DNA from: Microbotryum silenes-acaulis | Lineage: Eukaryota; Basidiomycota; Microbotryomycetes; Microbotryales; Microbotryaceae | Direction: 5' to 3' | Assembly: GCA_003665825.1 (NCBI GenBank) | Contig: QPFY01000001.1 | Location: 1,357,001 to 1,421,000, forward strand | Length of the DNA: 64,000 nt | In this document: positions 15,491-51,670 of the stretch, one piece after another | Layout: each line of letters begins with the position of its first letter | How positions within the stretch are numbered: the stretch's first letter is position 1 | Translations under genes and position numbers: made by a program | The notes under the pieces: generated by a model | Databases searched by the model: none | Told to the model about the DNA's origin: nothing | Seen by the model: only the letters and a program-made list of their open reading frames with translations

Positions 15491-18400
15491 ATGAATCCCT
15501 ACAGACGTAAACCTTCGCTCCCCACCCCCGGGGACAGCCGAACCGCAAGCTCGGTGTCGGCTGGTGGTCGCGCGCGATCCCTCACGGCGCCGTCATCCAA
15601 GTTCGCGCTCGGCGATGATTGCCTCCCGTCAATTTCGGACTTTCGAGCGAGCCAGATCTTCGTAAGTCTGAGTATAAGTCAGGCGTTTCGATCTCTATGT
15701 GAGCAACGACGAGGCGAGCGGCAGCGATAAAATGGCAAAGGCTCCTGCCTCGTTCGAACTCGTAATTTCGCGAGCACACGTGACGAGCCTAGCTCCGCTT
15801 CGGCTTCAGACGACGACGGCCTGCCGGGGTCCCAATCGTCGGCTACCCGTCAGCCCAGGCTTTATAACCTGAAAAACGCAGTCCCTTCTACCACGCATCT
15901 GACACATTTTGAATTTTGATCCCATTCATTTTCTCCCCTATTCTTACCTTCTATTCGAGCAGCCCGGTTTTTCATCAACGTTTCCGTTCAAGGTTTCGGT
16001 CGATGCCGACGTCGAAGGCTCGGAACCAGCGCGTCCCACTACATCGATTGGCCCAAAAGGCACCTTTCAGCATCGACTCGGGTGAGTAGCCTGAATGTTC
16101 AGAGTAGAAGTGCTTTCCATGGCTTGAGAAGGCTCGGGTGGCTATGGAAGGCAGCGTTCGACGACACGAGCTGATCCACTGGCTTGACCCGCACTATTGC
16201 GCAGTACCCGACATCCCAATGGTCACTTGAGATCCTGCTCCGACTCGCCGGCGACTTCGCCGGACTTTCGAACAAGTCAAGAACGAGGCTCACATTTTGC
16301 ATGGCGAGGGCCAGCATCCCCGGATGACTCAGGTCGCACGCAAAAACCTTCGGCTCGCGCTCCCACTGTGATGGATCGAGCACGTTACGAAACAGCCCAG
16401 AGTTTCACTCCTGGCCCAGCCTCGGTACAGACCTCGTCGTTCAGATCTAGAACGTTCGCGCATGACAGAACTGGCGATTGCATCAACCAGCTTTCTCAGC
16501 ACGATACAGCAGAGCCCACCTCGAGGTCGTTTGGGCAGGAACCGACGGATGCCACGGCCCTACCGCCCTCGACGGTTCCCAATTTCCTGGGCGACACAAG
16601 CCTCGAGGCCGCTTTCGCCGACACCTCTTGGTCGTTTGACATGGGCGCCTTGGATATCGGAACCTTCTTGGCAGGTCCTAGTGCACTTAAGGAGGACGGG
16701 GATCCACAAAATGGCGAAGAAGAGTCGGTGCCTGTGGGGTCGAGCTACCACGAGAAAGCCGGTGTGCGGGCCAGCAAGCTCGCTCCTGGACAGGGTCTCG
16801 ATCTGGATGCCCCTTCATCTAAGCACGGGAGCCTCGATCTGGACCGACCTTCATCTAAGCACGGGAGCCTCGATCTGGACCGACCTTCATCTAAGCACGG
16901 GAAATGGTCCCGCCCTGATTCGCAGTCCGTAGCTCCGATCCTTGACATCAGCGCTTATCGGCGTGCGGGGCTCGACGAGCCTGTTCCGAGCAGTGTGCAA
17001 GAGATGGAGCATCTCGCCGTCTCCCTACGCCCGACCAGCCAGCATCATCCGGACGAGACGCTCAGCATCACCACCAACTCAACCTCGACGGCGGCGAACA
17101 CTATCGCCGACGGGGCTTTTGATCAAATTGATGTAACTATTGACGACATTATCCTGATTCAAAACTCGCTCGTTCGCGCAGCAAGCCTACGACTGCGAAC
17201 CGAAACGGTCGACCCCGACCTTTTCCCCGCGAGCGGAGCGTTGGACGCGGCTGCAAATGAATTCGTGTACAGCGCAAGCTCCGAGGGTCCTTTCAACCCG
17301 GCATGGGATGAGCTCTCTCGACCCGCACCGGCTCACCACGACATGCTCGATGTTGTGGCTGAGGCGGTACCCCATTCACTGAATGCAGCCCAATCAGCCT
17401 TGCAAACTCAGCCCCAGTTAGGGATTGTGGTGCCGCCCACCGCGTCCCGGAGCATCTTCGTCGAGCATGAAATCAGCTCGAGGCCTTGTGAGTCAAATAG
17501 GTTTTTCCGTCGGAAATTCGATTTACTGATACCGCGTCGAAACCCCGTCGCTCGTAGCCAACCAACTGAAAAAGCAGCCCAGTGGCGCGATCGTGCGTTC
17601 GCCAGAGTCCAAGCATCGAAATCTTTCGGTCGCTGTTCCCCCGCGTATCCTCAAGTACCAAATCGACCATGAAGGCGATGATCCAAACTCTGACGATGAC
17701 GAACCGCTCGCTCACCGGGTCAACCCGCAGGGTGCCAGGGCAACTGGCGGGCCGGATGGCGAGGTGACCGGCGTGATTGCATCGGGGCCGAATGTTGAAG
17801 TTAAATCGTCGAGAGACTCCCTCCTCATCCGAGACGTCCGAGATCGGGCAACACTTGCCACGTTGGCGCTCAAACAAGGTCAAGAAGGCCGACAGGGATA
17901 CAAGTCGGTTCGCAAGACCTTCATCTCGGGCCCGACGCTTATGCCCGACCCAATCAGCATGACGGTCGTCCCGATTCGAAACCCCGACGCTGCTCTCACT
18001 CAGTCGTTTGGATCAGCGAAACAATCCTACCAGCCGTTGCGCAGCTCGTCGCAGCCCCGCAAGATCAAGGAGCTTGGCACGCGATTCAAGTCGATTCTGA
18101 AAAAGAAATCGCGCGATTGTGTCGCCCTGCTCAACGGAGATGAGGTCACACCATTCCAAGAGCATGAGCAAGATAGTCACGATGCCCTGGACTATCGTAC
18201 CGATGGCGACGATGACACGACAGTGACCCTGGTTGAGGCCGAGGCTCTCGCCGACGGGCACAACCAGCGCGGTACCCAACCCCGTGGATCTTTCTACGCG
18301 CTCAAACCGGCATCCCGAAGCAGCCGTTCTCTTGTCAATCTGGTCGGCAAGCTTCGGAGTCGATCAAAGTCGGAAGGGTTCGTGCGATCCTTCGAAGGTC

Positions 18401-33564: not shown

Positions 33565-33910
33565 TGAGCTTATCATCGGGTCCATGAGTAGGAAAAGGTG
33601 CGCCTCCCAGTCGAGGAGGGTGAGATATGAGACAATGCTTATAACAGCCCGGCAGTAAAGTGACGGGATCGCGAGTCGATGATTCACAGCCTATCTTTTG
33701 AGTGTCTCGGATTGAAATGGGAGCTTATACTATGCCTGCTCTCACAATTTCCTCTTTTTTCATTTTTTATTTGATAGACTTCATTAACAGCATAATTATA
33801 TTAATACCTAGAAATCTTCGGAAAAGGCGGAGGGAATGCTGTTACGCACACTGGCAGAAGCCAGTAGTGTAGGACTCATTGACCCTGAACCAGGATCAAT
33901 CATACCCACT

Positions 33911-35994
33911 AAAACCCCCTTTGGTGGCTTACAGAGACACTAGGCGACCCTTGGACTCCTGAATAGAGGCTCGAAGCCCCTCGAAGTCCGTTTCGGCGAT
34001 CGGTTCCAAAAGATCCGACGAGAATCGGCGACGGCGACAGAGCTTCCGGATCGAGTGAAAGAAGAGGACTCGTAGTTCGACAAGTCGACGTTCCGAGCGA
34101 GACACGACCGGACATACAAAGTCCACAAAGACTGGGTGGGGGGTCGGGGACAGAGCAGACCAGAGACGCCGGGCAAATGGGCAGCCGACCGCGAGGTGGG
34201 CCAGGCACTCGGGTGCTTCCGAGAGGCACATCACACAGGAGGCAGATCGATTGTTGGGGTGAGGGCTGGTTGGGGAGGCGACTTGGCTGCCCGGATGGAG
34301 GGACCCCAGGGAGAGAAGGTGGCCACCTCGGCGTCCGAGTGAACCCGGCGAACCTTGCGCAAAGCCTTCCACCAAGCGTTCCAACGTTGCTCAGGCAGAT
34401 CGAATACCTTCTGGTGTCCCTTGGGGAAGATAGGAGGGAAGATGAAGACTTGGTGGCGTTTGGACGCGTTCACAAACGAAGATGGGGTCATCACCTCGCC
34501 ATCGGGCCCTCGAAAAAGCGTCGGGTTTACCGAGAGTTGTATTCCGTGGCCCGCTGGGAAGTAGAGTACGTGCGTCGCCCATTGCTCGAGGTTCTGGCTC
34601 TTGGAGAGTTCCGGGGGATTGAGCGTGGTCACCGACGCCCAGGCTTCGAAGTATCGGACCCAACGTGCAGGAAGAAGTTTTCTCGTCTTTCTCACCGCAT
34701 GGTCCCACTTTGGGGGAGGATGGCAAAAGTATGCCCACCAGATCCAGATCCAAGGGCGACGATGCTGGTTGGGGGCCGGTCTGGACAAGGTGAAAGGGGT
34801 TGGTTGGTTCGGTGCCTGGAGGCGAATGCGGATGTCGAAGAGGTGGCGTGTGAAGCAGCCGTCCGGGGCCCGGAGCTGGAAGACCCACTTCGCGTGATCG
34901 ATCGCTAGACGCCGAGGCAGATCAATCAAGACGAAGCCGCCGTGATCGAGAGGGGTGCAGAGGCGCGACCGGGAGACCTTCGGACGTCGCTGAGTACCAT
35001 CCGAAGCTCGACCGTGAATGGCGAGCATGACGGCCTCCTCGATCTCCTTGACAACGCTCTTGGGGGCGGGGAGGAATCGGCTGTAGTACAGGATCTTTGT
35101 GTAGCGAGGGCTTCGTTGTAAAGGGTGCGGACAATGGAAGTGAGGTACTCGCAGGTCGCGTCGCCCTCGATCACGTGCAAACCCAGCTTGAATTTGCCCG
35201 GACCGATGTCGATTGCGCCCGGCACTTGGAACCGTGCCACAACCATTGAGTGCGTCGATTTGAGGACAGGAGCCCAAATTTTGTGATCATGGAAGAGGTC
35301 GACCCAATCAGGCGAGACATAGATGCGGTCAAGGCGACGGCACGTGCCGGGCGCTGAGCGATTCGTCGTGGCTCGTCCTTTGGGGTGGTGGAGCCGATAG
35401 GCGTCGAAAAGATTGTTAACCGTGGCAAGGTCGCGCATCTCCTGACCCCCATAATTCGTTCCATTTTGGTTCTCCGAATCGAGGGGTTGGGACTCAACAC
35501 AATTCCAGTCCCCCCCGACTAGGAGCGCAGGCGGCGAGGGTTCGTCACGCACGACTTGTCGGAGGGCGGTGCTGAGATGTGAGGAAGCGCTTTTTGTCTG
35601 GCTTGTCGGAGGAAGCCGCGTATATTGATACAACCCGGACCTTTGAATCACCCACACGAAAGGTGGCGTCGGTGACTCGGTCCGGGAAAGAAAAAGAGGC
35701 ACGAAGAGTGTTGGGAGGCGACTCGGGATCAATAGTAATGACCACGGAGTCGCTCTTCCAGAGTATGGCAGTGTTGTTGAAAGGAGTGAAGAGAGCGGAG
35801 AGCTTTAAGTCTTGGCACTCCTGAGTCCACTGGGCCACCCTTTCGGGGGAAGGTCGGCCAGTCTCGCTCAGGAGAAAGACGTCGGCGTTATGGGAGCGGA
35901 GATTGGAGAAAAGAGAGGCACGCTTACGGTCTTCATTGATTGACTGCACGTTGGCAGCAACAAAAGACACGTTTGGGATCTTAGTTGTGCTCAT
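33911..35994 (-). pseudogene. LINE ORF2 remnant: endonuclease and C-terminal zinc finger, RT deleted
   Basis: The endonuclease begins MSTTKIPNVSFVAANVQSIN with ADVFLLSETG, breaks frame near 35590, and resumes with LLVGGDWNCVES and RRLDRIYVSPDW; the usual final SDH reads THS here. Sequence then passes directly to the post-RT region (CTPLDHGGFVLIDLPRRLAI), with no YxDD or other RT motif. A further break near 34240 leads to the terminal zinc finger CVMCLSEAPECLAHLAVGC and the end IQESKGRLVSL. Frame breaks plus the RT deletion make this a pseudogene. Confidence 0.85.
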
Positions 35995-37409
35995 CATCGT
36001 GGTCCATAGCGTATTCCACGTCCTTGGGAGGTGCTTCTTGGTCTTTGGCTTCTTCGTCGGCCTCGTCGGGTCGGGCTTTGGGCGCGGCTGAGGGCAACGG
36101 CGTGGGCGAAGAGGGCTCGGGGGTCGGCTCGCAGGCTTCGAGGGCAGGCGCAGTGGGAGGGGCTTCACGAGTGGCTGGCGTGGAGAGGGCGGCAATCGAC
36201 TTGGATCGAGTTATGATCGACTTTGGCGTGGCCGGAGGAGGGCTTGGGGATGGAGAGGTGGTCTCTGAGCTGGGGGACTCGGAGGATTTTTCAACGAGGG
36301 AAGAGACAGTTCCCTGGTTGGAGGCAGGCTGGGGGGCAGTTTGAGTGGCAGTATTGGAAGGGAAGTTGAAGGAGAACTCGGGGCGGGCAGTCTTCGACAG
36401 AGATTCGGGCTGAGCCCTGTTGGACAGATCTTCAGTCTGGGCAGCCAGATCCTGTTCCACTCGACGTTTTTGGTCGTGCGGTCGGGGGGCGGAGGCCGCG
36501 GGGATCGACTTGGACCCAGCGGCGGGGGCGGCGGTGGTAACGGTGGAGGCTTGCGGGGCACGTGACGTGGGGGAACCCTGGGGGCTCGACGCGTGACGGC
36601 CCGGGCAGTGCTGGGTGGCGTGCGAGGTGCTCGCGCAGGATTTGCACGCCGGGGCGACGGGGCAATCCTTACGGACGTGAGCCGCGGAACGGCAGAAGAC
36701 GCAGTGGCGCATGCCACCGGTGATCCTCAGTGGGATTCGCTCAGTGACACCGTCACGAGCAATAGAAAGTGAGGCAGGGGGAAAAAACATCTACATCCTT
36801 AAGGGCAAGGATAAAGTCGTACACCCCAGAGATGTGTTTCGTCTTTCCAATGTATTGGATGCGACGGCGGAGGACTGTGCCATAGGCAGCGATCTGCTCA
36901 TCGAATAGGCGGAGACACTCGGGGTCGGAGAAAAAGCCCGTAAGGGTGCATTGTACAACACCTCCTTTAGTAGAGCTGTACAGCTTCTCGACTTTGCACA
37001 GAGTCTTGCCAACAGTAAGGCCGTTGGCAACCAGGGTGTCGAGATCGGCGGCCTTGGGAAAGCGGAGGCCGCGCTGACCCTTGATGACGCATGGCATTGC
37101 GCCGGTAAGGGCAGGGTAGTGTTTGTCGAGCGCGAGGAGGACTTGCTTGACCGAGGTTGAGGGTGGGGTGTTGATGATGACACAGTTCTCGATGTTGTGC
37201 ATCAGGGGATGGGCGGCGACGGCAGTCGAGGCGTTGGCGGTGGCGTTGCCGTGCTTCGCAGCGGAGCGGGCGCCGACCGCGGCGGAGTAAGATTTGGTGG
37301 TGGTGGCGGGGGCTTGGCCGGGAGGATCGGGAGGATCGGGAGGGTCAGGGCAAAGAGGTGGTATAGCAGCAGGGCTGGCGTTGTTGGTGTTGTTGTTGTT
37401 GTTGTCCAT
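35981..37409 (-). pseudogene. LINE ORF1 (gag-like, CCHC zinc knuckles), frameshifted
   Basis: Starts MDNNNNNTNN from a (GTT)n tract, followed by Pro-rich spacer and an RRM-like region (NCVIINTPPSTSVKQVLLAL, VVQCTLTGFFSDPECLRLF). The frame must shift by one at a T6C5 homopolymer near 36780 to reach the zinc knuckles CVFCRSAAHVRKDCP and CKSCASTSHATQHC. The C-terminal part is Pro/Ser-rich. Its TAA (35981-35983) overlaps the ORF2 ATG (35992-35994) by 14 nt, an arrangement that suits stop-start reinitiation. The homopolymer shift could be a lost base or programmed frameshifting; decay is more likely given the other breaks. Confidence 0.8.
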
Positions 37410-37966
37410 GTTCGAAAAATCAAGTCACTCCGGAGATCAAAAAAATAGCCTCTACCCATCTCGACCTACTTAGGAGCTTTCCAGCGATCATCCTAGATTC
37501 TAGAGCGACTGCGATAGACCGGAGAGGTTTTGAAACGATCGCTGCACTAAAGGGCACATCAATAATATTGCAAAAAAGCAATAAAAAAATGGTAAAACGA
37601 AAGTGTGGCATCTACTACTCTCTTGTCGATCAAACCGTCTATCTTCGGGATCAAATCAACAGGGGCAGGCTTAGCTGACCGCTCCCCACTGCACTCGCTC
37701 ATTCAGCTCCCAATTCCACGGCTGCTCCGCCGATTTCCTCCGGCGGCAGGTTCCCTCCGGAACACGCGCCCAGGGTCTCGAATAATGCTCATAGCTTGGG
37801 CCAAGCCGTTTCGTACGATCTTAGAAGTTTAACCCGTTCCCTCACCTTGCGTGGGAATCCTCTTTTTCTCGGCGCCCCTCGCTATCATAACCCGTTGAAT
37901 TTACGGGAGGATGAAGTTCAAGTAGCAGGAGAATTGAACAGTACACATGATCTCAGCATTACCCAA
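37410..37966. other. LINE 5' flank to inverted-repeat boundary, no gene seen
   Basis: About 560 bp. The first part is probably the LINE 5' untranslated region. An AT-rich patch (37560-37600) follows, then a sequence without recognisable genes up to the left edge of the inverted duplication. It is not present beyond the right arm, so it lies outside the duplication. Confidence 0.4.
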
Positions 37967-37993
37967 AGATGTTGATAAGCAGGGACTCGGCTT

Positions 37994-40259
37994 CTAAGGC
38001 CTGTCAACAAGGGCTGCCAAATCAGAAATGAATCCATCGTGAGAAAGCTTACCCTGCTCCCACGGAGCATTCACTTCAGCTTCTTCTTCCTCCCTCATCA
38101 AGCGACCTCGCGGATAATCCAGCCCGCAAAAGCGCATGACGATTCCGAGTAGGTCGAAGACGCCAGCCCAATAAGATGTGTAGGGTTGAAGTGTCTTTTG
38201 TAGGCTATAGTGGCTTTGGAACAGCACCATCTTGCTTTCGGCGGGGAAGCTTTCCGGGTCCTCCCAGCCGGACCAAATGATTCTGGTGGTGGGTATCATG
38301 TCCTTTGGGCCATTGGGACCCTCGGGTCGACTGAATACAAGGAAGAGAATCACGTAGGCGAGCGACTCGATGTCGTGCCAGGGCTGATGGGGAAGAGGGG
38401 GTCCCACACCGCCAAGGGGTGGGAATCTTTGGCGAGCTAGGAAGACAAAAGTCCCCTACGGAGACGAGACAGCCCGGGCTCGTCAGCTCATACAGCACAC
38501 TCGAAGTCTTTACGTTCGACTCCCAGCGAAGCTGAACCTACGGCTCGGCGGTATCGCTCGGCGGGGGTGGGACCGTCATCCTTGATGTAGATGGCCAGGT
38601 CGTAATCGATGAGCACACCCTGTCCATCTGGAGCGACCATAATGTTCCCGGCCGAGACGTCACGATGCAGGATGTGCATCCGGTAGAGATTTCGCAGACC
38701 TGAGGACGACACAGGAGCTCGTGAGATCATGGCGCTGGCACGCCCCAATCATAGCCAAGTCCTGACACTCACCTTTGGCTACGCCCAGGATGACTCGAGC
38801 AAGGGAGACGGTCGAATCGATGACCCAGATGGGATCAAAGCATTGCTCATGAAAGGCGACTTCCATCGCCCTCGGCGTGAATCGGAACCCACGCGGCAGG
38901 CCACCGCCGCCTCCGAGAAACTTGGGCACGACGGTGAACTCGCTCTCGCGGTACACATCGACGATGTTCGTCAACCCTTCACGCTCTTCGGGTGGAGCTG
39001 TGGCAATGGAGAGGCGGATACGGTCGTGTTCATCGCTCCGAGGCTCCGCTACGAAAGAAACCGTCATGGCATATTCCTGGGTAGACGTGGACGCTTCCTT
39101 CTCGCCGCCGCCTCGGGTCGCCCTGACTCGATAGGCCGACTGTGCACCGTCCATCCCAAAAGGTGCTCCGGCAGAGTTGTTCCACAATCTCGACGCGACT
39201 GAACGTGGGGACTGACGCCAAGTGCTTGCGATATCGAGGCACCCGCAGAGGTAACCCGGCGAAGGCGAACGGGTAAGCAGACAGGCTCGCGACGATGCCA
39301 AGCTCCGAGTCCGTCAGGCTGAGCAGTCGGGCAAAGAACGTCGAGAGGTGGCCATTCGCTTCGGTGCACTCAATATCGGGACTTAACAATAGACCGCCAT
39401 GGGTGCAAAGAAAGATGACGAGGGTCGATTCGACGAGGATAAAGCCGAAGGCGTGCGAGCGGATCGGGTTGGTGGCGAGCGCACGGATGTACCCCTCAAA
39501 TCGTTCGTGGAGAGCTTCTTTGTCGCCACCTACATTACGTACCTGACCCCTGACCATGATATCACCTACTACCGCGACCCGTGACCAGTCTTGTGGAGTC
39601 TCGTGCTGCTCGCAGTGTGAGCTCCTGTTGGCGTCGGCGCCTCCGGCTTCAAAGGCTTCTCGAGTGAGGAGGGCAGCACCCGGCATCTTGTCGGAAAAGT
39701 CCAGGGGACCGAAATGTACTGGGTCACGGTAGGTAATGAAACGTCCGCGGGTTCTCTGCACAGGTCGAACGCACTCGTCAACGACCAGACGCTTTACCCT
39801 CTTGCCCCTTGCCCGAACCACGCTGGCTCAGTCCGTTCCGAGTCAACGAGGCCGACTCACCAGACTTGGCTTCCCCGACTCCCAAGTGATCTCGGGCATC
39901 CCTGAAGGCCCTGTTCTGCTGCCCTCCGCTTCCGAGTCGTCCATTGACTTGATGAAATAGTCCCTCAATGACGGCCACTCGAACTCCCGGGCGTCATCAG
40001 AGCTAGATGACGAGGAGGCGCTTGATGTACCAGTGGAAGAGTGATCGCCAGACGACGGGTTCGGCGGCGGTGATGATGCGGCGGTCGATGCTTGGGCTGA
40101 TGTTCCGCTAGATTCATATGACTCTGGCAGCGATACGATCGACGAGGCCAGGCCCTGTTCCTTGGTCGACCAACGAGGAGTTCAAGTCACGCATGGGACA
40201 CCAATTGAGCTGACATCATCCCAAGGGTGCCGCGCATCATAGAGTGACGGATCTTGCAT
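37994..40259 (-). pseudogene. FunK1-type fungal protein kinase A, left copy, with a frame switch
   Basis: Mirror copy of the gene at 48697-50962; see that entry for domains. The same frame switch (here about 39160-39190) is present, so the change predates the duplication or is not a true error. The stop is at 37994, only 27 bp inside the arm edge; 3' flanks of the two copies therefore differ almost immediately, and each copy has a different terminator region. Confidence 0.75.
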
Positions 40260-41021
40260 CGCGTGAGTGAATGTGTGCAGCTGTGTACGAAATAATAGCG
40301 TCCAGTACAGAGTGAAGGGCGTGTGTCAGGATTGTATGAGTGCGGTGTGTGAGGTGTATGGGGAGAGAAGATGCGTGTAGTCAAGGACGAGGGCCTGTGG
40401 CGGAAGCTCGGGTCAGTGTATCGATCTGACGGATTTGCAGAGACTCAAGTACACTACATGGGCCAAACTTGACTTGCTACCGGCCCAATTTGATCGGCTT
40501 TTTGGGATAGGGACATCAGCCTCGGCATTCTGTATAAATTCCAATGTGAAAATTACAATATGCAACGAGAGTGTTCGCGTTCTTTGATTGGCTGGCCAAC
40601 GGTACACTGCACAGCCTGGCTGCCAGCCGGGCCGGCTTCTGTTCACTCGACTCGTACTCCTTCTCTACCGCTCATACTCCATGATGTTGACTCTCGTGAC
40701 AGCTCGCAAGATACAAAAGGTCGGCTTGTGTATGCTCTTAGTCCCTTTGCCGCCGCCTGGCAAGCCTTTCATGGGGGGTTTTCGAAATGCCCCCTTCACA
40801 AGTAGCCATCCTCACAGGAGCCGAGCACCGACTCGGAGTCGGAGTGAGTTTCGACTCAAGGCGCTTGATCATGCTCTTGTACACAAAACAAAACCCGTGT
40901 CAAGACAGGCGAGTGGAAACATTCAACATATAGTACCCATTCTTCAAAATCGGTGAGTAGATCTGGTCGATAGGAACAAGACATGTCACGTCGTTGGGCA
41001 AGGCTGAATCGCGACTTCAGA

Positions 41022-41840
41022 TGCATGTGCGAGGGCCACCTTCGAAGAACATGGCCCACTCGGGGCCTCAGCCTGCAGCATGCAGCCTGCAGGCGCCGAG
41101 CGTCGAGTGACTTTGCACTCAAAGCCGCTGTTCCTGACCGTATCAGAATATCTTGCTCTCCTCAATGTTACCTATTCCATGACTTCAGCTGCTATCTACC
41201 ACCCGTCGATGTCTGTTACATCGGCAAGTTTTACGTGTACATCCGAGGTGCTGCAGTGAGCGATGGGTTTCAAGGAAAGGGAGCATGCACCGACGGAGAC
41301 TTTCCTACTCAAAACTTTCCCCCATGCCACGAAACCCTCGCTCTGGTCATAATTGTGGGAATAGATTACTAAGAGGTAGTTCAAGTTCGTCTACCGTCAA
41401 ACCAGTCCCAAACGGACGTTTCAGATGCCTTTCAAAGCGATGAATGCAGGACCGATTCGGCGGCGCGTCCGATGACTGCACATCAGCTCGTACAATTGCC
41501 GAGATGCAGAATAATTATACCTGGCAGATGCAACTGACCGACAAGTAGTGCTGACTAGTAGTCATTAGTGCGCGAGTAACGGAGCTCCCTTGGTACTATT
41601 TCACCACAAGCTCTGAGGATAATACACCTGCTTGTGCGCTCACATCGGCAGACGGCGACGGCGAACTCACCTGGGTCACATGGGGACGATTTACCGCCAA
41701 ATCTAGCTGCACTGGTGACTATACCATCACAAACTGCTGTGTGCGCCACCATCACAAACTGCTGTGGGCGCTATCAACATATTGCTTATGAGTTGGAGGA
41801 ACCACGGGTGATCTACGAAAGCCAGCAATGCACTGAGTAA
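41022..41840 (+). pseudogene. unknown spliced gene broken by a 25-bp tandem duplication, left copy
   Basis: Several open segments with protein-like composition follow each other: YLALLNVTYSMTSAAIYHPS with SFTCTSEVLQ ending at a GTGAGC donor (about 41255); a Ser-rich piece GSSSSSTVKPVPNG; DDCTSARTIAEMQNNYTWQM; and ELPWYYFTTSSEDNTPACAL with WVTWGRFTAKSSCTGDYTI. The last breaks at 41723-41772, where ACCATCACAAACTGCTGTG is repeated with a 25-bp period. Beyond it a second frame, GRYQHIAYELEEPRVIYESQ, runs to TAA at 41838. No family is recognised. Cys spacing suggests a secreted or extracellular product, but no signal peptide is assured. Exon joins are tentative. Confidence 0.35.
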
Positions 41841-43300
41841 CTCAAAAAGGCCGAGTCGGTCGAAGTCTCAGTAGTCTCGGAGATCGGCCCTTGCCGTCGA
41901 GCTCGATTCAACAAATGATAAAGAACGTCCCGCAAGCTTTGGTTGAAGAAGCGAGGTCTAGTGAGATCAGAGAACATAACCCATAATGTCCTTCCCCTTC
42001 ATATAGGCATGCTCGGTGTTAACGTTAGTGCCCCAATCAGATGATAAGTGAGCGAAGGACCGTGAGTAGGATTGGAGATTATGAATGGCTGATCTCGAAG
42101 TCTGGGCCTGTTGTTCCGAGTCGTCCAATCGCATGTCACGTCACCACTACACCTACACCAAGTCGATGTCAGATCTCTGTAAATTTGCGCCATCTACGCC
42201 GCTGAAATGGTGGGGCATCACAGTGCCACCCGTTCGACAGGGCAACCGTCACGGGAAGGGAAAGCCCCGAGTCCGTCAGCGAGTGACAGCAACGTCGCGA
42301 TGGGCATCGCTAGAGAGCATATCTGCTGAAGGAACAAGACGTGACATGACGGAATTCCATGACTTGCTGGAACTCCGATCCCAGTCTGCGACTTGGTGGA
42401 CGATGTGACAGACTTCATGCCCGTGTTGATGAGCGTGTTGAAAGCTTGAGACGCGTCGGAGTTCGCTCTGCGGCACGATTGGAGCCGAGGTGCCAACGTT
42501 CTGTTCCAGAGCCTTCGACTAGCTGCGAGGTAGTGAACGCTGGGCCATGCCGTAGAGAGTGTGCCGCGCAGAACGAGTTGTCGAGGGCGATGCGTGAGTG
42601 CGATGTGGGAAGCAGCAGAGGAGCAAAGAGCGGCAGAGGCAACGACATATCGCTGCGCTATCAGCGACGGATCGATGAATAGCGATGGACGTGCTCGACC
42701 TGGACCTCGAGCTTGAGCCTCCCACTCGTACAGCGACTCGACGTCTCAGAATGGTCAACATTCGTTTCTCTTAAGATTACCATGTCAAGACATAATCATA
42801 TCCTCCCGCCAGAAATTACATACAGCCCTCTACAGCATGCGGATCGACTGTTGTAGTCGAAACGGACTTGAACAAGACGTGTCGGCTTGTTCGACGCCAA
42901 ATTTGCTACCGGCCCAGGCTGCCGATTTGATCGGCTTATTTTGCCGCTGCCGCTGCGCGGCGCGATTAAGATCGACCCTTTTATTGTCTGCCCGAGGTGG
43001 CTCCTGATCACTCTTGGAGCATTCGCACGCGCCGAACCCAGCCTTAGACGCCGAGGCGGAGGTCAACGTCAGACACGTGCCGATTCGAGCATCACGCTAA
43101 ACGGCAACGTGCGGGATCGCGCTGGAGCATTCGCCCCGTACGTCGTGACGTGAGTCGGCGCTGCCAGCTCGGGTGAAACCTACGTCATTAGTGGATCGCG
43201 CTCACAGGCGACTTTGTTCAAGATCCCCACTATTTCAATCTTATATTTGCTCGTTGGCTAGGGCTCGGGGGCGCTATGCGCCCGCCGCACCTCCCGAAAA
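41841..43300. other. arm interior with no recognised gene (mirror 45656-47115)
   Basis: Several open frames exist on both strands but none resembles a known family, and none could be joined into a convincing gene. A two-block sequence word at 42903-42942 recurs at 40474-40505 (see findings). A perfect hairpin GGGCGC-TAT-GCGCCC lies at 43269-43283. Confidence 0.4.
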
Positions 43301-43498
43301 GAAAAAGGATGCGGCGCGCGCGCGCTTGAGATGCTTATTTAATGGAGGTGTTTTGTGGTGCCATATTTTCAGTAGATAGAAGGTGTTTTTGTGGTGCAAT
43401 CTTTCAAGATAGAAAGGCGTTATGTGGCGCAATCTTTTAAGTCGACCTCCATTAAACAAGCATCTCAGGCGCGCCGCGACGCGCCGATCCTTTTTCTT
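43301..43498. mobile_element. about 200 bp stem-loop element, MITE-like, left copy
   Basis: Ends are long imperfect inverted repeats: 43301-43349 and 43445-43498 (both read GAAAAAGGAT...GAGATGCTT(A/G)TTTAATGGAGGT inward, with CG-rich differences between). Between them lie three tandem units of about 34 nt built on TGTTTTTGTGGTGCAATCTT. No coding capacity. Terminal inverted repeats with a short non-coding core suggest a non-autonomous DNA element or a regulatory hairpin; no target-site duplication could be confirmed. Confidence 0.5.
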
Positions 43499-43573
43499 CC
43501 CCTCCCCACAGTCCAGGAGGTGCAGCCTCGACTTGAAGCTCTCACCATCCCAATCAAGAACACCGAGAAAGAT

Positions 43574-44424
43574 ATGCTAGAGAGCGGCACCTCGGCACCA
43601 CAAGATGACATGCCAAGTAAGTTCCGATGGCTTTTGAGTAGATTGGACTCTTTCGCGATCTAGCTGTCGCTCAGAGAGTCCCACTAAGCTGCTCTTCAAG
43701 TACGATCGTGTTGCAGGCTCGGGACAACATAACGCCTGGGCCCATCCCATTCAACCCACTTTTCTCACAATCGCGTTCGACCAATGAAGAAACGAACAGC
43801 AAAAAGCATATCAAGGAACGCGTCGAACACTTGATGGAGGCTACGGCCGTGGTATCTAGCCCTCTGGGCGACTACTTCACCCAACCGTCGCTGGAGATCG
43901 ACGCGCTTGTCGAGCTCGTCCTCGCGAACGAGACATTCGACCGTGTTGGAACCGAGCCGACGATGGAGGCTATGGCGAACAAGATCAACCTCGTGGTAAG
44001 CCGAGTCTCTCATTTTTGCTTCATTCTCTCTTCGCACCGTGATGATGCCTGAACCTGACTTGAGTAGGATCCTACACTGCAGATGGAGGGCAAGACTTTT
44101 CGAAGGCTCATCCCTTGTGGTGCTTGTCCGTACGACTTATCCGAGTCGAGTGGCGACTATTCCAGCAGGGATAAAGCCTACGACATGATCGTAGCGCTGG
44201 AATCGTGCCAGGCACCCGAAATCTCCCCTACTGGTCGCCGTAAATCGGAACGAGGCGACACCGAGAGGCGACACTCAGTAGGGGAGCTTGTCACCGCCCG
44301 CGAGGATCCCGGACTCCGTGTCGCTCAGCAACAGACATCGGATGAGGAATCGGATCAACAGTCGCTATCATCTTTTCACTCGATTTCCTCAGATCGAATG
44401 ATCCCGGAAGGCATATCGACGTAG
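43574..44424 (+). pseudogene. FunK1-type kinase B, N-terminal fragment, left copy, cut at arm edge
   Basis: Tentative start MLESGTSAPQDDMP at 43574. Introns 43617 to about 43793 and 43996-44067 (GTAAGC..CTGACTTGAGTAG) give HIKERVEHLMEATAVVSSPL, EIDALVELVLANETFDRVG, then DPTLQMEGKTFRRLIPCGAC and AYDMIVALESCQAPEI. At 44223 homology with the right copy ends and the frame runs into spacer sequence read in the wrong direction (SPTGRRKSERGD...), stopping at 44424. The catalytic half is absent. Confidence 0.65.
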
Positions 44425-44732
44425 ATCGTGAGCGTTGTTGTGCAGATTGTGGCACCGAAGGTCCACCGTCGGATCGTGGGAGTCGGGCGAAACCGATAAA
44501 ACCGCCGACCGGTTTGCTCCTTCGCGGCAACATTCGAGTTTTTGGTGTAACTCGATTTGAACTCCCAAAACATCGCAACCTGGGTTGTTTGTCGTTTGTC
44601 GTGTGGGTTTGAGCGCCTCTCGTTCTTCGGCTTCCTCTGCTTCCTTTTCCCCTGGGGACTCGGCCCATCGCCGCCGGGAGGCTCGGTGCTTGCAAGGGGT
44701 GACTCTGGTGGGCCGCTGGTCCATGCATCGAT
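44224..44732. other. 509 bp unique spacer between the inverted arms
   Basis: Encodes, on the minus strand, the continuation of right-arm FunK1-B (VAMFWEFKSSYTKNSNVAAK and RRWTFGATICTTTLTIYV). At its left end an 11-nt inverted repeat (44223-44233 and 44276-44286, CTCCCCTACTG / CAGTAGGGGAG) can form a hairpin right at the arm/spacer joint. Confidence 0.85.
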
Positions 44733-45382
44733 GATTTCGGGTGCCTGGCACGATTCCAGCGCTACGATCATGTCGTAGGCTTTATCCCTGCTGGAATAGT
44801 CGCCACTCGACTCGGATAAGTCGTACGGACAAGCACCACAAGGGATGAGCCTTCGAAAAGTCTTGCCCTCCATCTGCAGTGTAGGATCCTACTCAAGTCA
44901 GGTTCAGGCATCATCACGGTGCGAAGAGAGAATGAAGCAAAAATGAGAGACTCGGCTTACCACGAGGTTGATCTTGTTCGCCATAGCCTCCATCGTCGGC
45001 TCGGTTCCAACACGGTCGAATGTCTCGTTCGCGAGGACGAGCTCGACAAGCGCGTCGATCTCCAGCGACGGTTGGGTGAAGTAGTCGCCCAGAGGGCTAG
45101 ATACCACGGCCGTAGCCTCCATCAAGTGTTCGACGCGTTCCTTGATATGCTTTTTGCTGTTCGTTTCTTCATTGGTCGAACGCGATTGTGAGAAAAGTGG
45201 GTTGAATGGGATGGGCCCAGGCGTTATGTTGTCCCGAGCCTGCAACACGATCGTACTTGAAGAGCAGCTTAGTGGGACTCTCTGAGCGACAGCTAGATCG
45301 CGAAAGAGTCCAATCTACTCAAAAGCCATCGGAACTTACTTGGCATGTCATCTTGTGGTGCCGAGGTGCCGCTCTCTAGCAT
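44376..45382 (-). pseudogene. FunK1-type kinase B, N-terminal half, right copy extending through spacer
   Basis: Same N-terminal exons as the left copy (mirror of 43574), but the frame continues through the spacer with a Lys/Arg-rich linker, VAMFWEFKSSYTKNSNVAAK and RRWTFGATICTTTLTIYVD. This matches the FunK1 block that precedes the kinase domain (compare SHAFGFILVESTLVIFL in FunK1-A). It ends EEIE then TGA at 44376, or at a possible GTGAAA donor; beyond that the inverted left arm begins, so no kinase catalytic half is available. The rest was lost or displaced when the inverted copy was made. Confidence 0.65.
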
Positions 45383-45457
45383 ATCTTTCTCGGTGTTCTT
45401 GATTGGGATGGTGAGAGCTTCAAGTCGAGGCTGCACCTCCTGGACTGTGGGGAGGGG

Positions 45458-45655
45458 AAGAAAAAGGATCGGCGCGTCGCGGCGCGCCTGAGATGCTTGT
45501 TTAATGGAGGTCGACTTAAAAGATTGCGCCACATAACGCCTTTCTATCTTGAAAGATTGCACCACAAAAACACCTTCTATCTACTGAAAATATGGCACCA
45601 CAAAACACCTCCATTAAATAAGCATCTCAAGCGCGCGCGCGCCGCATCCTTTTTC
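45458..45655. mobile_element. about 200 bp stem-loop element, MITE-like, right copy
   Basis: Mirror copy of 43301-43498 inside the right arm of the large inverted duplication. Confidence 0.5.
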
Positions 45656-47115
45656 TTTTCGGGAGGTGCGGCGGGCGCATAGCGCCCCCGAGCCCTAGCC
45701 AACGAGCAAATATAAGATTGAAATAGTGGGGATCTTGAACAAAGTCGCCTGTGAGCGCGATCCACTAATGACGTAGGTTTCACCCGAGCTGGCAGCGCCG
45801 ACTCACGTCACGACGTACGGGGCGAATGCTCCAGCGCGATCCCGCACGTTGCCGTTTAGCGTGATGCTCGAATCGGCACGTGTCTGACGTTGACCTCCGC
45901 CTCGGCGTCTAAGGCTGGGTTCGGCGCGTGCGAATGCTCCAAGAGTGATCAGGAGCCACCTCGGGCAGACAATAAAAGGGTCGATCTTAATCGCGCCGCG
46001 CAGCGGCAGCGGCAAAATAAGCCGATCAAATCGGCAGCCTGGGCCGGTAGCAAATTTGGCGTCGAACAAGCCGACACGTCTTGTTCAAGTCCGTTTCGAC
46101 TACAACAGTCGATCCGCATGCTGTAGAGGGCTGTATGTAATTTCTGGCGGGAGGATATGATTATGTCTTGACATGGTAATCTTAAGAGAAACGAATGTTG
46201 ACCATTCTGAGACGTCGAGTCGCTGTACGAGTGGGAGGCTCAAGCTCGAGGTCCAGGTCGAGCACGTCCATCGCTATTCATCGATCCGTCGCTGATAGCG
46301 CAGCGATATGTCGTTGCCTCTGCCGCTCTTTGCTCCTCTGCTGCTTCCCACATCGCACTCACGCATCGCCCTCGACAACTCGTTCTGCGCGGCACACTCT
46401 CTACGGCATGGCCCAGCGTTCACTACCTCGCAGCTAGTCGAAGGCTCTGGAACAGAACGTTGGCACCTCGGCTCCAATCGTGCCGCAGAGCGAACTCCGA
46501 CGCGTCTCAAGCTTTCAACACGCTCATCAACACGGGCATGAAGTCTGTCACATCGTCCACCAAGTCGCAGACTGGGATCGGAGTTCCAGCAAGTCATGGA
46601 ATTCCGTCATGTCACGTCTTGTTCCTTCAGCAGATATGCTCTCTAGCGATGCCCATCGCGACGTTGCTGTCACTCGCTGACGGACTCGGGGCTTTCCCTT
46701 CCCGTGACGGTTGCCCTGTCGAACGGGTGGCACTGTGATGCCCCACCATTTCAGCGGCGTAGATGGCGCAAATTTACAGAGATCTGACATCGACTTGGTG
46801 TAGGTGTAGTGGTGACGTGACATGCGATTGGACGACTCGGAACAACAGGCCCAGACTTCGAGATCAGCCATTCATAATCTCCAATCCTACTCACGGTCCT
46901 TCGCTCACTTATCATCTGATTGGGGCACTAACGTTAACACCGAGCATGCCTATATGAAGGGGAAGGACATTATGGGTTATGTTCTCTGATCTCACTAGAC
47001 CTCGCTTCTTCAACCAAAGCTTGCGGGACGTTCTTTATCATTTGTTGAATCGAGCTCGACGGCAAGGGCCGATCTCCGAGACTACTGAGACTTCGACCGA
47101 CTCGGCCTTTTTGAG

Positions 47116-47934
47116 TTACTCAGTGCATTGCTGGCTTTCGTAGATCACCCGTGGTTCCTCCAACTCATAAGCAATATGTTGATAGCGCCCACAGCAGTTT
47201 GTGATGGTGGCGCACACAGCAGTTTGTGATGGTATAGTCACCAGTGCAGCTAGATTTGGCGGTAAATCGTCCCCATGTGACCCAGGTGAGTTCGCCGTCG
47301 CCGTCTGCCGATGTGAGCGCACAAGCAGGTGTATTATCCTCAGAGCTTGTGGTGAAATAGTACCAAGGGAGCTCCGTTACTCGCGCACTAATGACTACTA
47401 GTCAGCACTACTTGTCGGTCAGTTGCATCTGCCAGGTATAATTATTCTGCATCTCGGCAATTGTACGAGCTGATGTGCAGTCATCGGACGCGCCGCCGAA
47501 TCGGTCCTGCATTCATCGCTTTGAAAGGCATCTGAAACGTCCGTTTGGGACTGGTTTGACGGTAGACGAACTTGAACTACCTCTTAGTAATCTATTCCCA
47601 CAATTATGACCAGAGCGAGGGTTTCGTGGCATGGGGGAAAGTTTTGAGTAGGAAAGTCTCCGTCGGTGCATGCTCCCTTTCCTTGAAACCCATCGCTCAC
47701 TGCAGCACCTCGGATGTACACGTAAAACTTGCCGATGTAACAGACATCGACGGGTGGTAGATAGCAGCTGAAGTCATGGAATAGGTAACATTGAGGAGAG
47801 CAAGATATTCTGATACGGTCAGGAACAGCGGCTTTGAGTGCAAAGTCACTCGACGCTCGGCGCCTGCAGGCTGCATGCTGCAGGCTGAGGCCCCGAGTGG
47901 GCCATGTTCTTCGAAGGTGGCCCTCGCACATGCA
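47116..47934 (-). pseudogene. unknown spliced gene broken by a 25-bp tandem duplication, right copy
   Basis: Exact mirror of 41022-41840 with the same 25-bp tandem duplication (47184-47233). The break is therefore older than the inverted duplication, or was copied with it. Confidence 0.35.
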
Positions 47935-48696
47935 TCTGAAGTCGCGATTCAGCCTTGCCCAACGACGTGACATGTCTTGTTCCTATCGACCAGATCTACT
48001 CACCGATTTTGAAGAATGGGTACTATATGTTGAATGTTTCCACTCGCCTGTCTTGACACGGGTTTTGTTTTGTGTACAAGAGCATGATCAAGCGCCTTGA
48101 GTCGAAACTCACTCCGACTCCGAGTCGGTGCTCGGCTCCTGTGAGGATGGCTACTTGTGAAGGGGGCATTTCGAAAACCCCCCATGAAAGGCTTGCCAGG
48201 CGGCGGCAAAGGGACTAAGAGCATACACAAGCCGACCTTTTGTATCTTGCGAGCTGTCACGAGAGTCAACATCATGGAGTATGAGCGGTAGAGAAGGAGT
48301 ACGAGTCGAGTGAACAGAAGCCGGCCCGGCTGGCAGCCAGGCTGTGCAGTGTACCGTTGGCCAGCCAATCAAAGAACGCGAACACTCTCGTTGCATATTG
48401 TAATTTTCACATTGGAATTTATACAGAATGCCGAGGCTGATGTCCCTATCCCAAAAAGCCGATCAAATTGGGCCGGTAGCAAGTCAAGTTTGGCCCATGT
48501 AGTGTACTTGAGTCTCTGCAAATCCGTCAGATCGATACACTGACCCGAGCTTCCGCCACAGGCCCTCGTCCTTGACTACACGCATCTTCTCTCCCCATAC
48601 ACCTCACACACCGCACTCATACAATCCTGACACACGCCCTTCACTCTGTACTGGACGCTATTATTTCGTACACAGCTGCACACATTCACTCACGCG

Positions 48697-50962
48697 ATGC
48701 AAGATCCGTCACTCTATGATGCGCGGCACCCTTGGGATGATGTCAGCTCAATTGGTGTCCCATGCGTGACTTGAACTCCTCGTTGGTCGACCAAGGAACA
48801 GGGCCTGGCCTCGTCGATCGTATCGCTGCCAGAGTCATATGAATCTAGCGGAACATCAGCCCAAGCATCGACCGCCGCATCATCACCGCCGCCGAACCCG
48901 TCGTCTGGCGATCACTCTTCCACTGGTACATCAAGCGCCTCCTCGTCATCTAGCTCTGATGACGCCCGGGAGTTCGAGTGGCCGTCATTGAGGGACTATT
49001 TCATCAAGTCAATGGACGACTCGGAAGCGGAGGGCAGCAGAACAGGGCCTTCAGGGATGCCCGAGATCACTTGGGAGTCGGGGAAGCCAAGTCTGGTGAG
49101 TCGGCCTCGTTGACTCGGAACGGACTGAGCCAGCGTGGTTCGGGCAAGGGGCAAGAGGGTAAAGCGTCTGGTCGTTGACGAGTGCGTTCGACCTGTGCAG
49201 AGAACCCGCGGACGTTTCATTACCTACCGTGACCCAGTACATTTCGGTCCCCTGGACTTTTCCGACAAGATGCCGGGTGCTGCCCTCCTCACTCGAGAAG
49301 CCTTTGAAGCCGGAGGCGCCGACGCCAACAGGAGCTCACACTGCGAGCAGCACGAGACTCCACAAGACTGGTCACGGGTCGCGGTAGTAGGTGATATCAT
49401 GGTCAGGGGTCAGGTACGTAATGTAGGTGGCGACAAAGAAGCTCTCCACGAACGATTTGAGGGGTACATCCGTGCGCTCGCCACCAACCCGATCCGCTCG
49501 CACGCCTTCGGCTTTATCCTCGTCGAATCGACCCTCGTCATCTTTCTTTGCACCCATGGCGGTCTATTGTTAAGTCCCGATATTGAGTGCACCGAAGCGA
49601 ATGGCCACCTCTCGACGTTCTTTGCCCGACTGCTCAGCCTGACGGACTCGGAGCTTGGCATCGTCGCGAGCCTGTCTGCTTACCCGTTCGCCTTCGCCGG
49701 GTTACCTCTGCGGGTGCCTCGATATCGCAAGCACTTGGCGTCAGTCCCCACGTTCAGTCGCGTCGAGATTGTGGAACAACTCTGCCGGAGCACCTTTTGG
49801 GATGGACGGTGCACAGTCGGCCTATCGAGTCAGGGCGACCCGAGGCGGCGGCGAGAAGGAAGCGTCCACGTCTACCCAGGAATATGCCATGACGGTTTCT
49901 TTCGTAGCGGAGCCTCGGAGCGATGAACACGACCGTATCCGCCTCTCCATTGCCACAGCTCCACCCGAAGAGCGTGAAGGGTTGACGAACATCGTCGATG
50001 TGTACCGCGAGAGCGAGTTCACCGTCGTGCCCAAGTTTCTCGGAGGCGGCGGTGGCCTGCCGCGTGGGTTCCGATTCACGCCGAGGGCGATGGAAGTCGC
50101 CTTTCATGAGCAATGCTTTGATCCCATCTGGGTCATCGATTCGACCGTCTCCCTTGCTCGAGTCATCCTGGGCGTAGCCAAAGGTGAGTGTCAGGACTTG
50201 GCTATGATTGGGGCGTGCCAGCGCCATGATCTCACGAGCTCCTGTGTCGTCCTCAGGTCTGCGAAATCTCTACCGGATGCACATCCTGCATCGTGACGTC
50301 TCGGCCGGGAACATTATGGTCGCTCCAGATGGACAGGGTGTGCTCATCGATTACGACCTGGCCATCTACATCAAGGATGACGGTCCCACCCCCGCCGAGC
50401 GATACCGCCGAGCCGTAGGTTCAGCTTCGCTGGGAGTCGAACGTAAAGACTTCGAGTGTGCTGTATGAGCTGACGAGCCCGGGCTGTCTCGTCTCCGTAG
50501 GGGACTTTTGTCTTCCTAGCTCGCCAAAGATTCCCACCCCTTGGCGGTGTGGGACCCCCTCTTCCCCATCAGCCCTGGCACGACATCGAGTCGCTCGCCT
50601 ACGTGATTCTCTTCCTTGTATTCAGTCGACCCGAGGGTCCCAATGGCCCAAAGGACATGATACCCACCACCAGAATCATTTGGTCCGGCTGGGAGGACCC
50701 GGAAAGCTTCCCCGCCGAAAGCAAGATGGTGCTGTTCCAAAGCCACTATAGCCTACAAAAGACACTTCAACCCTACACATCTTATTGGGCTGGCGTCTTC
50801 GACCTACTCGGAATCGTCATGCGCTTTTGCGGGCTGGATTATCCGCGAGGTCGCTTGATGAGGGAGGAAGAAGAAGCTGAAGTGAATGCTCCGTGGGAGC
50901 AGGGTAAGCTTTCTCACGATGGATTCATTTCTGATTTGGCAGCCCTTGTTGACAGGCCTTAG
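48697..50962 (+). pseudogene. FunK1-type fungal protein kinase A, right copy, with a frame switch
   Basis: FunK1 kinases are a fungal-specific, often expanded family with mostly unknown substrates. N-terminal conserved region: RFEGYIRALATNPIRSHAFG, LVIFLCTHGGLLLSPDIE and FFARLLSLTDSELGI. Kinase part: LYRMHILHRDVSAGNIMVA (catalytic loop), VLIDYDLAIYI (DFG position degenerate), GTFVFLARQRFP and WHDIESLAYVILFLVF, a FunK1 hallmark. Introns 49096-49200, 50184-50256 and 50415-50500 keep frame. Near 49770-49800 the frame changes from EIVEQLCRS to GAPFGMDGAQSAYRVRA with no plausible intron, so the glycine-loop region is disrupted unless frameshifting or an unseen splice occurs. The start at ATG 48697 with a 36-nt first intron is tentative. 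A functional gene with an unusual splice remains possible. Confidence 0.75.
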
Positions 50963-50989
50963 AAGCCGAGTCCCTGTTTATCAACATCT

Positions 50990-51277
50990 AGAGGTGATTC
51001 TTCCTCCGCCTAGCTGCTGCTTTAGCTGTCTGGGCCGAGCTCGTTTAAGCAACCTCCACCCCGAGCTCGCCGTGGCAGTGGTTTATCGCACCCAGCACAG
51101 ATTCTCTGTAATATGGTTACATGACTGGATGGCGAGCCATGTAGGAATGACTGAGTGAAGTATTGTCGCTTGTACCTTTGCTGTGTTGGAGCGGAACCCC
51201 CACTGTGACGTCAAATAGGGGCTAGCACAGCAATCACTGCAGCTCGGATTCAGTTGCCGTAATAAACATGCGCAAAC
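50990..51277. other. short intergenic region outside right arm
   Basis: Unique sequence after the arm edge, between the FunK1-A right copy and the inverted FunK1 fragment. No gene recognised. Confidence 0.4.
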
Positions 51278-51670
51278 TCAACTCAACGAGAACGCATTAG
51301 AACCGCTACGGTCAAGTTCTTCGCTCGACTTCAGGCTTGACGGAAGATGTACACTTGAACTCTGGGCTGGGTCCTCTAAACAGCTTTTAAGGAAGGGTTG
51401 CAGCTCTGTGATGAATTGATGGTGGGGATACTTTCCTCGATGGGAACTCTCTCCTCGCTCCCACGGAGCATTCACTTCAGCTTCTTCTTCCTCCCGCCTG
51501 CAGCGACTCAGCGGATAATCCATCCCGCAAAAGCGCATGACGATTCCGAGTAGGTCGAAGACGCCAGCCCAATAAGATGTGTAGGGTTGAAGTGTCTTTT
51601 GTAGGCTATAGTGGCTTTGGAACAGCACCATCTCATCGATTCGACAGAATACTTCTTCAATGGTGGACAT
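51278..51670 (-). pseudogene. diverged FunK1 C-terminal fragment, inverted relative to right FunK1-A
   Basis: The frame contains MVLFQSHYSLQKTLQPYTSY and WAGVFDLLGIVMRFCG, nearly identical to the C-terminus of FunK1-A. It then diverges (MDYPLSRCRREEEEAEVNAP) and has a different tail ending NAFSLS. The homologous core is about 51455-51632. Upstream of the core the N-terminal MSTIEEVFCRIDE has no kinase match, so the fragment is a chimeric relic. It differs from FunK1-A by several substitutions, so it is an older duplicate than the palindrome. Confidence 0.7.

Follow-up and report, generated by a model that had tools for sequence, protein, structure and literature searches.

A near-perfect 13-kb palindrome in a Microbotryum contig and its probable origin by fold-back inverted duplication

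The palindromes of Y chromosomes undergo arm-to-arm conversion. Fold-back inverted duplication is a known kind of mutation, and in humans its products carry a spacer, short inverted microhomology or local inserts, and a deletion (PMC3907307). Origin-dependent inverted triplication (ODIRA) predicts a deletion, a copy-neutral spacer and an inverted duplication in that order (PMC10766186). Among fungi, a palindrome of Zymoseptoria tritici was reported in a paper on breakage-fusion-bridge cycles (PMC3681731), and Candida tropicalis exemplifies the centromeres that in some fungi consist of inverted repeats (PMC4741521). For Microbotryum, a survey of titles and the opening lines of abstracts returned no paper on palindromes. 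Here, we describe a palindrome within a 64-kb stretch of Microbotryum DNA (the window), in which a housekeeping protein has its best match in Microbotryum intermedium (92% identity), as expected for the fungal chromosome proposed in the initial annotation.

In the assembly, the arms at 37967-44223 and 44733-50989 are mirror images of 6,257 bp each, separated by a single-copy spacer of 509 bp (44224-44732) that lies within a FunK1 gene on the minus strand (gene A). At a mirror sum of 88956, the arms differ at 1 of 6,257 positions, while mirror sums that were off by 1 to 6 gave 4,540 to 4,820 mismatches, i.e., the chance level. BLAST returned the arms as a single block with 99.984% identity and no gaps; a looser repeat finder lengthened the arm pair by 12 bases of low identity, which we took as chance. 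The sole mismatch, G at 37979 against T at 50977 (G against A when read on the same strand), is the 13th base counted from the outer edge. Mirror count and BLAST thus bear out the arm coordinates, the spacer length and the single mismatch near the outer edge given in the initial annotation, and its sharp arm edges are also borne out, as arm identity falls to chance inside one 100-bp step at the outer and inner edges alike. The palindrome occupies 1.395 to 1.408 Mb of a contig of 2,468,947 bases (C1) and has sequence on either side.

Repeats surround the palindrome, as would suit a functional element, whether a centromeric inverted repeat or a transposon whose inverted ends are very long. Microbotryum centromeres, however, have been annotated through specific centromeric repeats (PMC10502011); in a genome search, only the two arms matched a complete arm, the other 73 matches being partial; and the left arm is not bordered by a visible target-site duplication. 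We therefore regard a functional element as extremely improbable. The palindrome has no evident function; it duplicates repeats and the remains of broken kinase genes.

A related locus in the same genome, at 2.02 Mb on contig C3, is ~92 to 94% alike in its main blocks. The C3 homology crosses both edges of the right arm (44733 and 50989) unbroken, extending outward to 51316 and inward through the spacer to 44234. It covers the whole spacer except the first 10 bp, with a 93% match for 44300-44700, and it stops at 44223/44234 and at 37967, i.e., at both edges of the left arm. Because the homology runs through the right-arm edges and the spacer, we infer that the right arm (plus strand) and the spacer are parental and that the left arm (minus strand) is the inverted copy. 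At the single position that differs between the arms, alignment of the arms with C3 shows that the left arm (G at 37979) retains the C3 state; at 50977, C3 and the left arm have C on the strand on which the right arm has T. The arms differ from each other at 1 of 6,257 positions versus 187 of 3,600 for the distance to C3 in the two blocks compared, so that the divergence between arms is ~0.3% of the distance to C3, with a Poisson upper bound of ~1.7%. The similarity of the left flank to C3 is weaker (72 to 81%). The blocks at the C3 paralog stand in another order than in the window, and the ancestor of the break point is seen only through this paralog. A stretch of the left arm at 40418-42696, mirrored at 46260-48538 in the right arm, lies in the gap between C3 blocks and has no match at the C3 locus; it consists mostly of a dispersed repeat of unknown type. 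This repeat (40630-43000) has ~69 to 89% matches at C3:0.78 Mb, on C5, C6, C8 and C11, and at other loci, and its final 304 bp also match C3:2.02 Mb.

Two FunK1 genes of the window are affected, and neither has an intact reading frame. Only the 5' part of gene A is present (44224-45392, minus strand), lying partly in the spacer: the window copy is cut at 44234, the point at which homology to C3 stops, while gene A at C3 stays open as a 381-codon frame. The window copy is also frame-shifted relative to C3. The window does not contain the 3' part of gene A, and 671 bp of that part (C3:2024000-2024670) have no second match in the genome. The match of spacer and gene A to the FunK1 profile PF17667 at 44376-44888 (E = 0.0076; 15.4 bits) is below the cut-off of 24.1. 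Gene B is present as a relic in the left arm (38569-39827, minus strand) and as its mirror in the right arm (49129-50387, plus strand), and both copies share a frame-shifting indel relative to C3. Its match to PF17667 at 39030-39827 reaches 22.5 bits (E = 5.3e-5; cut-off, 24.1), and the part corresponding to the C-lobe (profile positions 298 to 347, at C1:1395569-1395700) scores 33.5 bits, as it does in each arm. At C3, gene A (32.1 bits) and gene B (32.4 bits) also score above the cut-off. The profile matches 4 of 14 control genomes, 2 of them over the cut-off, and a weak match alone is accordingly not specific. No intact gene was found in the arms, and with 49129-49926 as the query, 0 of 1,738 protein database candidates (0.55 to 1.75 times the query length) were obtained at E ≤ 0.001. 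To the left of the palindrome lies a LINE-like element on the minus strand with approximate ends at 33755-37454 and an AP-endonuclease domain (PF03372; E = 6.3e-6; 26.5 bits versus a cut-off of 24.5). At C3, the sequences homologous to 33631-33754 and to 37455-37621 adjoin each other, although 0.74 kb of the element is found immediately next to them. The LINE and FunK1 relics noted around the palindrome at the outset are thus supported by the AP-endonuclease domain and the PF17667 matches.

The joins of the left arm retain considerable detail. At the inner join, the 10 nt at 44224-44233 (minus strand), which have no C3 alignment, are the exact reverse complement of 44276-44285, 42 bp deeper in the spacer. 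This is the sole such place in the 64-kb window, and when the next 100 bases were shuffled 20,000 times, the match recurred in a fraction of 0.00015. Including the last base of the left arm, the inverted match to the source (44276-44286, plus strand) is 11 nt long. A possible snap-back site (44234-44272) pairs GTCGCC at 44234 with GGCGAC, its reverse complement, which occurs at 44254 and 44267. Entry into the template of the insert is offset by 3 nt from the 6-nt GGCGAC match, and priming would thus have proceeded without clean microhomology; at the switch to 44733, a single nt is shared. At the outer join, a dispersed-repeat piece in the left flank (37888-37958, plus strand), with at least 39 genome matches including itself, ends ~8 bp before the join, while the family carries on past the cut point in seven other aligned copies. 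No source is evident for the ~8 nt between repeat and arm. A microhomology AGATGT between the outer end of the arm and the continuation of the dispersed repeat in two copies was dropped as a candidate, since other copies differ and the ~8 nt intervene. A search of the window against Rfam gave nothing at the gathering score, and two loci of the dispersed repeat gave one match, below the gathering score, and no tRNA.

Based on these observations, the palindrome probably arose recently and in one event, in which break repair by fold-back priming and template switching produced an inverted duplication and a small deletion. Gene A would have broken at ~44234, with loss of the leftward sequence that held its 3' part. 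On the right-hand side, the free 3' end would then have folded back and copied ~10 nt nearby in reverse (44276-44285), switched to 44733 and copied 6,257 bp outwards to 50989, before final joining to the left stump at 37966. The sequence itself shows the arms and the spacer, the parental side, the templated 10 nt, the lack of the gene A 3' part compared with C3, and the cut repeat on the left; when the event happened, which polymerase acted, how priming was arranged and in what order the steps ran are the presumptive parts of this account. As in fold-back events, a single-copy spacer lies between the inverted copy and its parent; there is a templated insert together with a 6-nt GTCGCC/GGCGAC pair, 3 nt out of register; and sequence has been lost beyond the spacer, judging from a pre-event state deduced from the C3 paralog. 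The human class has a terminal deletion with a new telomere or a captured end, while here sequence is present on both sides. Beside the right arm, gene B sequence also occurs as a small inverted duplicate of older date (51441-51633, minus strand), with 95.6% identity to the arm and 86 to 89% to C3; its presence at this place is in keeping with the fold-back account. Of the three readings offered at the outset, i.e., a very recent event, conversion or an assembly fault, the join evidence favors the first, because broken edges are confined to the left arm, the insert is templated and sequence is missing; the other two are less favored.

The layout of the locus, with its deletion, spacer and inverted duplication, is also the one predicted by ODIRA, and an inverted triplication of that type, or a remnant of a breakage-fusion-bridge cycle, could have eroded to one inverted duplication plus a deletion. 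We consider this quite unlikely. Neither a third copy nor a second palindromic junction was found, the locus lies inside a 2.47-Mb contig and not at its end, and the 10-nt insert is most simply explained by a local snap-back, although the end products of these routes and of fold-back are hard to distinguish.

The near-perfect identity of the arms and the repeats at the locus also fit a fault in the assembly, in which misjoining in repeats, or a read that was chimeric or folded back, set a spurious inverted copy next to the real sequence; fold-back chimeras likewise carry spacers and microhomology. Such a fault would require two separate false joins, one inner and one outer, and one base differs between the arms. 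Moreover, among the best candidates scored, the searches turned up no alternative, non-palindromic form of the locus: besides itself, the spacer retrieved only the 93% paralog and a 68% match, the left flank only a 70-bp dispersed piece, and the right flank only C3 and the arms, while the 671 bp from the 3' part of gene A matched C3 alone. A merge of two haplotypes is unlikely because there is one STE3 locus, on C6 and not on C1, as in a haploid assembly. The templated join argues against the simple versions of a fault. A missed sequencing adapter leaves no spacer, one junction, no sequence loss and no templated insert, while here we find a 509-bp spacer, two junctions and a missing 3' part of gene A. 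We therefore consider an assembly fault unlikely.

Alternatively, the palindrome could be older and held identical by arm-to-arm conversion, as on the primate Y, a reading that overlaps with the fold-back origin. The sole mismatch is unexpectedly close to an edge: it lies 13 bp in, where conversion would be least effective, and the chance of a mismatch that near either edge is ~26/6257, or 0.4%. An inverted pair on C9 is a mosaic in which 76 of 7,701 bases mismatch, 1 in the first 7,000 and 75 in the last 701. However, a single mismatch is thin evidence, the C9 array is a different kind of locus with multicopy units, one recent event explains the identity without a further process, and both the cut repeat and the templated insert can still be recognized; we therefore find conversion very unlikely as the explanation. 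Its suggested role in keeping the kinase copies alike is not supported, as the relics are frame-shifted in both arms and the second FunK1 gene is truncated; because these relics are broken, selection for likeness of the kinases is not evident.

Like the window, C9, C8 and C13 of the same genome contain inverted FunK1 duplications. On C13, the duplication spans 4,807 bp with 1 mismatch and 1 gap, and its copies are 20.6 kb apart. On C9, arms of ~11.8 kb with 98.2 to 98.8% identity form an alternating inverted array, with FunK1 matches 32 to 71 kb from a contig end, and C8 has the same units at ~92%. With the window arms, C9 shares 68 bp, C13 shares 72 and 44 bp, and C8 shares no piece. The equal spacers of 3,229 bp in the inverted repeats of C8 and C9 differ in sequence, and this lead was dropped. 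FunK1 neighbors less than 20 kb apart had no inverted bias (18 in opposite and 15 in the same orientation; P = 0.35), based on 64 N-lobe hits hand-picked from 142 FunK1 profile matches. It is doubtful, with only a slim chance, that the palindrome is, instead of an isolated scar, one product of an ongoing process in this lineage that makes and homogenizes inverted FunK1 duplications close to chromosome ends as well as in the interior, these large exact repeats escaping RIP-like C-to-T mutation and conversion keeping copies alike to within a few bases of their edges.

RIP-like mutation in Microbotryum targets TCG (PMC10502011). We found no RIP-like marks in the arms, which have an index of −0.50, compared with a range of −0.69 to 0.23 over the 64 one-kb steps of the window, and the sole difference between the arms is not at any of the 330 TCG/CGA sites in an arm. 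The locus is a test case for whether RIP-like mutation spares an exact duplication of 6 kb and, with about one sexual generation per year in Microbotryum (PMC10502011), for the lifetime of a 13-kb palindrome. Because the joins are still readable and a paralog reveals much of the parental state, the break, insert, copying, rejoining and loss can be proposed from sequence alone.

Compared with known systems, the locus shares near-identical arms and a small spacer with the Y-chromosome palindromes, but its arms contain no intact gene, and arm identity is the sole indication of its age, so that conversion is only a possibility here. The palindrome on chromosome 14 of Z. tritici is also large, natural and fungal, with transposon remnants beside it; that palindrome is part of a large insertion, between 500 and 550 kb, in an accessory chromosome and is flanked by outward-facing Copia LTRs (PMC3681731), whereas the palindrome described here is inside a large contig beside housekeeping DNA. 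The "1-0-1-2-1" class, attributed to ODIRA or MMBIR, has the same deletion, copy-neutral spacer and inverted duplication (PMC10766186), while here the joins have no visible large repeat and nothing points to a triplication stage. Finally, human fold-back duplications with a single-copy ("disomic") spacer share with our locus the spacer, the neighboring loss, and the microhomology or inserts at the join; they accompany terminal deletions and have spacers of mostly a few kb (PMC3907307), whereas here the event is interstitial, with the other stump rejoined, and a spacer of 509 bp separates arms of 6.26 kb.

The sequence at 37967-44223 is the reverse complement of that at 44733-50989 with 1 mismatch in 6257 positions; with the register moved by 1 to 6 positions, 4540-4820 mismatches result. 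A spacer at 44224-44732 lies between the two arms, the edges of which are sharp on sequence comparison. The palindrome described in the initial annotation holds on every point that can be read from sequence. We noted a small MITE-like element at 43296-43523 and at its mirror position, which has inverted termini and matches numerous genomic sites in short pieces, and a short tandem repeat at 16797-16902 that matches itself at a 36-base shift (94% over 70 bases). The genome, of which the window is C1:1357001-1421000, comprises 29,850,648 bases in 88 contigs and was placed by taxonomy lookup in the Microbotryomycetes, Basidiomycota. The CBM21 housekeeping protein encoded at 55153-57486 is 92% identical to Microbotryum intermedium BQ2448_2269, and none of the remaining 119 matches listed (from a total of 624) exceeds 61% identity. 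The pheromone receptor family STE3 has one locus with three adjacent matches, which fits a haploid assembly; it is on C6 and, thus, on a contig other than that of the window.

To compare the arms, we used a related locus on contig C3 (C3:2019210-2027139), which is about 92-94% alike to the spacer and the main parts of the arm and 88-91% alike in two more blocks. Window positions 48539-51316 match local C3 positions 5211-8009 in one gapped alignment that runs unbroken through the outer edge of the right arm at 50989, and 44234-45392 match local C3 positions 10671-11836, spanning the inner edge of the right arm at 44733. In the left arm, the same C3 pieces end at 37967 and 44223. Because the homology continues through the edges of the right arm and ends at those of the left arm, the right arm and spacer are the parental sequence, whereas the left arm is an inverted copy attached to the spacer on its left side. 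The C3 blocks occur in a different order from that in the window, and the 2.28 kb at 46260-48538 between them, mostly dispersed repeat, is absent from C3; the C3 locus is therefore a rearranged paralog and not the corresponding empty site.

At the inner join, 10 nt separate the end of the left arm (44223) from the start of C3 homology (44234). This piece is the exact reverse complement of 44276-44285, the sole such place in the window (11 nt when the last left-arm base is included), and when the adjacent 100 bases were shuffled 20,000 times, the 10-mer arose with a frequency of 0.00015. GGCGAC, the reverse complement of GTCGCC at 44234, occurs at 44254 and 44267, and a hairpin pairing the two motifs could set the 3' end beside the 10-nt template, though 3 nt out of register. 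Gene A, the FunK1 kinase gene (PF17667) partly in the spacer, has on C3 an open frame of 381 codons that runs past the cut point in the window; its continuation is missing from the window, and a genome search with 671 bp of it (C3:2024000-2024670) found no match except C3. At the outer join, a dispersed-repeat piece (37888-37958) with at least 38 further genome matches breaks off some 8 bp short of the arm, while all seven other aligned copies extend beyond that point; therefore, the left stump likewise seems to have lost sequence. The repeat piece also carries the short inverted motif CCCGTT...ACGGG. Further left, flank pieces at 37455-37690 (72-75% to C3) and 33631-33754 (81%) abut in C3 and are separated in the window by a LINE-like element, of which a 0.74-kb piece (93%) lies in C3 on the other side of the flank pieces; this arrangement weakly supports a common ancestral order.

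An assembly artefact that created a spurious inverted copy would require two false joins. The sequences that truly adjoin them would then be expected to survive somewhere in the genome. Searches with the spacer, with each of the two flanks and with part of the 3' end of gene A recovered no second version of the locus, and we consider an artefact unlikely. The palindrome reads as an inverted duplication that is recent, belongs to a known class and has its joins still readable. Compared with C3, the window is different at 187 of 3600 aligned sites (two largest blocks, gaps excluded), and the arm-to-arm divergence (1/6257) is 0.3% of this value, with a Poisson upper bound of about 1.7%. According to PMC10502011, a RIP-like activity in Microbotryum is directed at TCG. 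At the mismatch, the left arm has the C3 base, and the right arm shows C-to-T in a GCT rather than a TCG context. Using the RIP-like index formula of the same paper as coded for this analysis, the arms scored −0.50, compared to −0.69 to 0.23 in 64 one-kb steps of the window, and thus appear unmarked. Counting inwards from the outer edge, the mismatch falls on the 13th base (chance of lying so near either edge, about 0.4%), and this one base hints at conversion or a special event at the edge. The suggestion that conversion serves to keep the kinase copies alike is countered by gene B, a FunK1 relic with the same frame-shifting indel relative to C3 in both arms, and by gene A, which is frame-shifted and truncated. 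No function of the palindrome is evident.

A FunK1 profile gave at least 142 exon-level matches (107 of 228 candidates scored), from which 64 N-lobe matches were taken by hand as a neighbour set. Thirty-four of these are on contigs of known length, 30 of them at most 125 kb from a contig end. Neighbours had no overall orientation bias (18 opposite versus 15 same, P = 0.35), and on C31, C62 and C18 same-orientation matches at 6571-6572 base spacing form direct tandem arrays. All three mirror-pair sites inspected (C9, C8 and C13) had inverted repeats; they were picked from among the suggestive places, which also include C13:90-160 kb and C14, and hence give no rate. C9:1276001-1324000 contains alternating inverted FunK1 units that recur every 15.02-15.03 kb or so, with arms of about 11.8 kb (98.2-98.8%); in one pair, 76 of 7701 bases are mismatched, with 1 in the first 7000 (plus a 6-nt gap) and 75 in the remaining 701. 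The 4.3-kb inverted repeat at C8:1519226-1523502 and 1526732-1531018 (96.1%, 3.2 kb between arms) consists of the C9 units at about 92%, so the two are kin. The inverted pair at C13:273779-278585 and 299188-303993 (4807 bp, 1 mismatch, 1 gap) is 20.6 kb apart. Beside the right arm, gene B sequence at 51441-51633 (95.6% to the arm, 86-89% to C3) is an inverted piece of greater age: an inverted duplication has arisen here on an earlier occasion.

If a resected break is primed by fold-back, the predicted products are a single-copy spacer, a local templated insert and adjacent loss. Alternatively, origin-dependent inverted triplication (ODIRA) has outcomes including deletion, spacer and inverted duplication in that order, with MMBIR among the joining routes (PMC10766186). 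These routes are hard to tell apart from one end product; we favour a one-step fold-back or template switch, given the local origin of the insert and the fact that neither a further copy nor another palindromic junction was found. Human inverted duplications (PMC3907307) combine a single-copy spacer, a local templated insert and adjacent loss, and the palindrome resembles them in all three. A large palindrome in a fungus has a precedent in Zymoseptoria tritici, as reported in PMC3681731.
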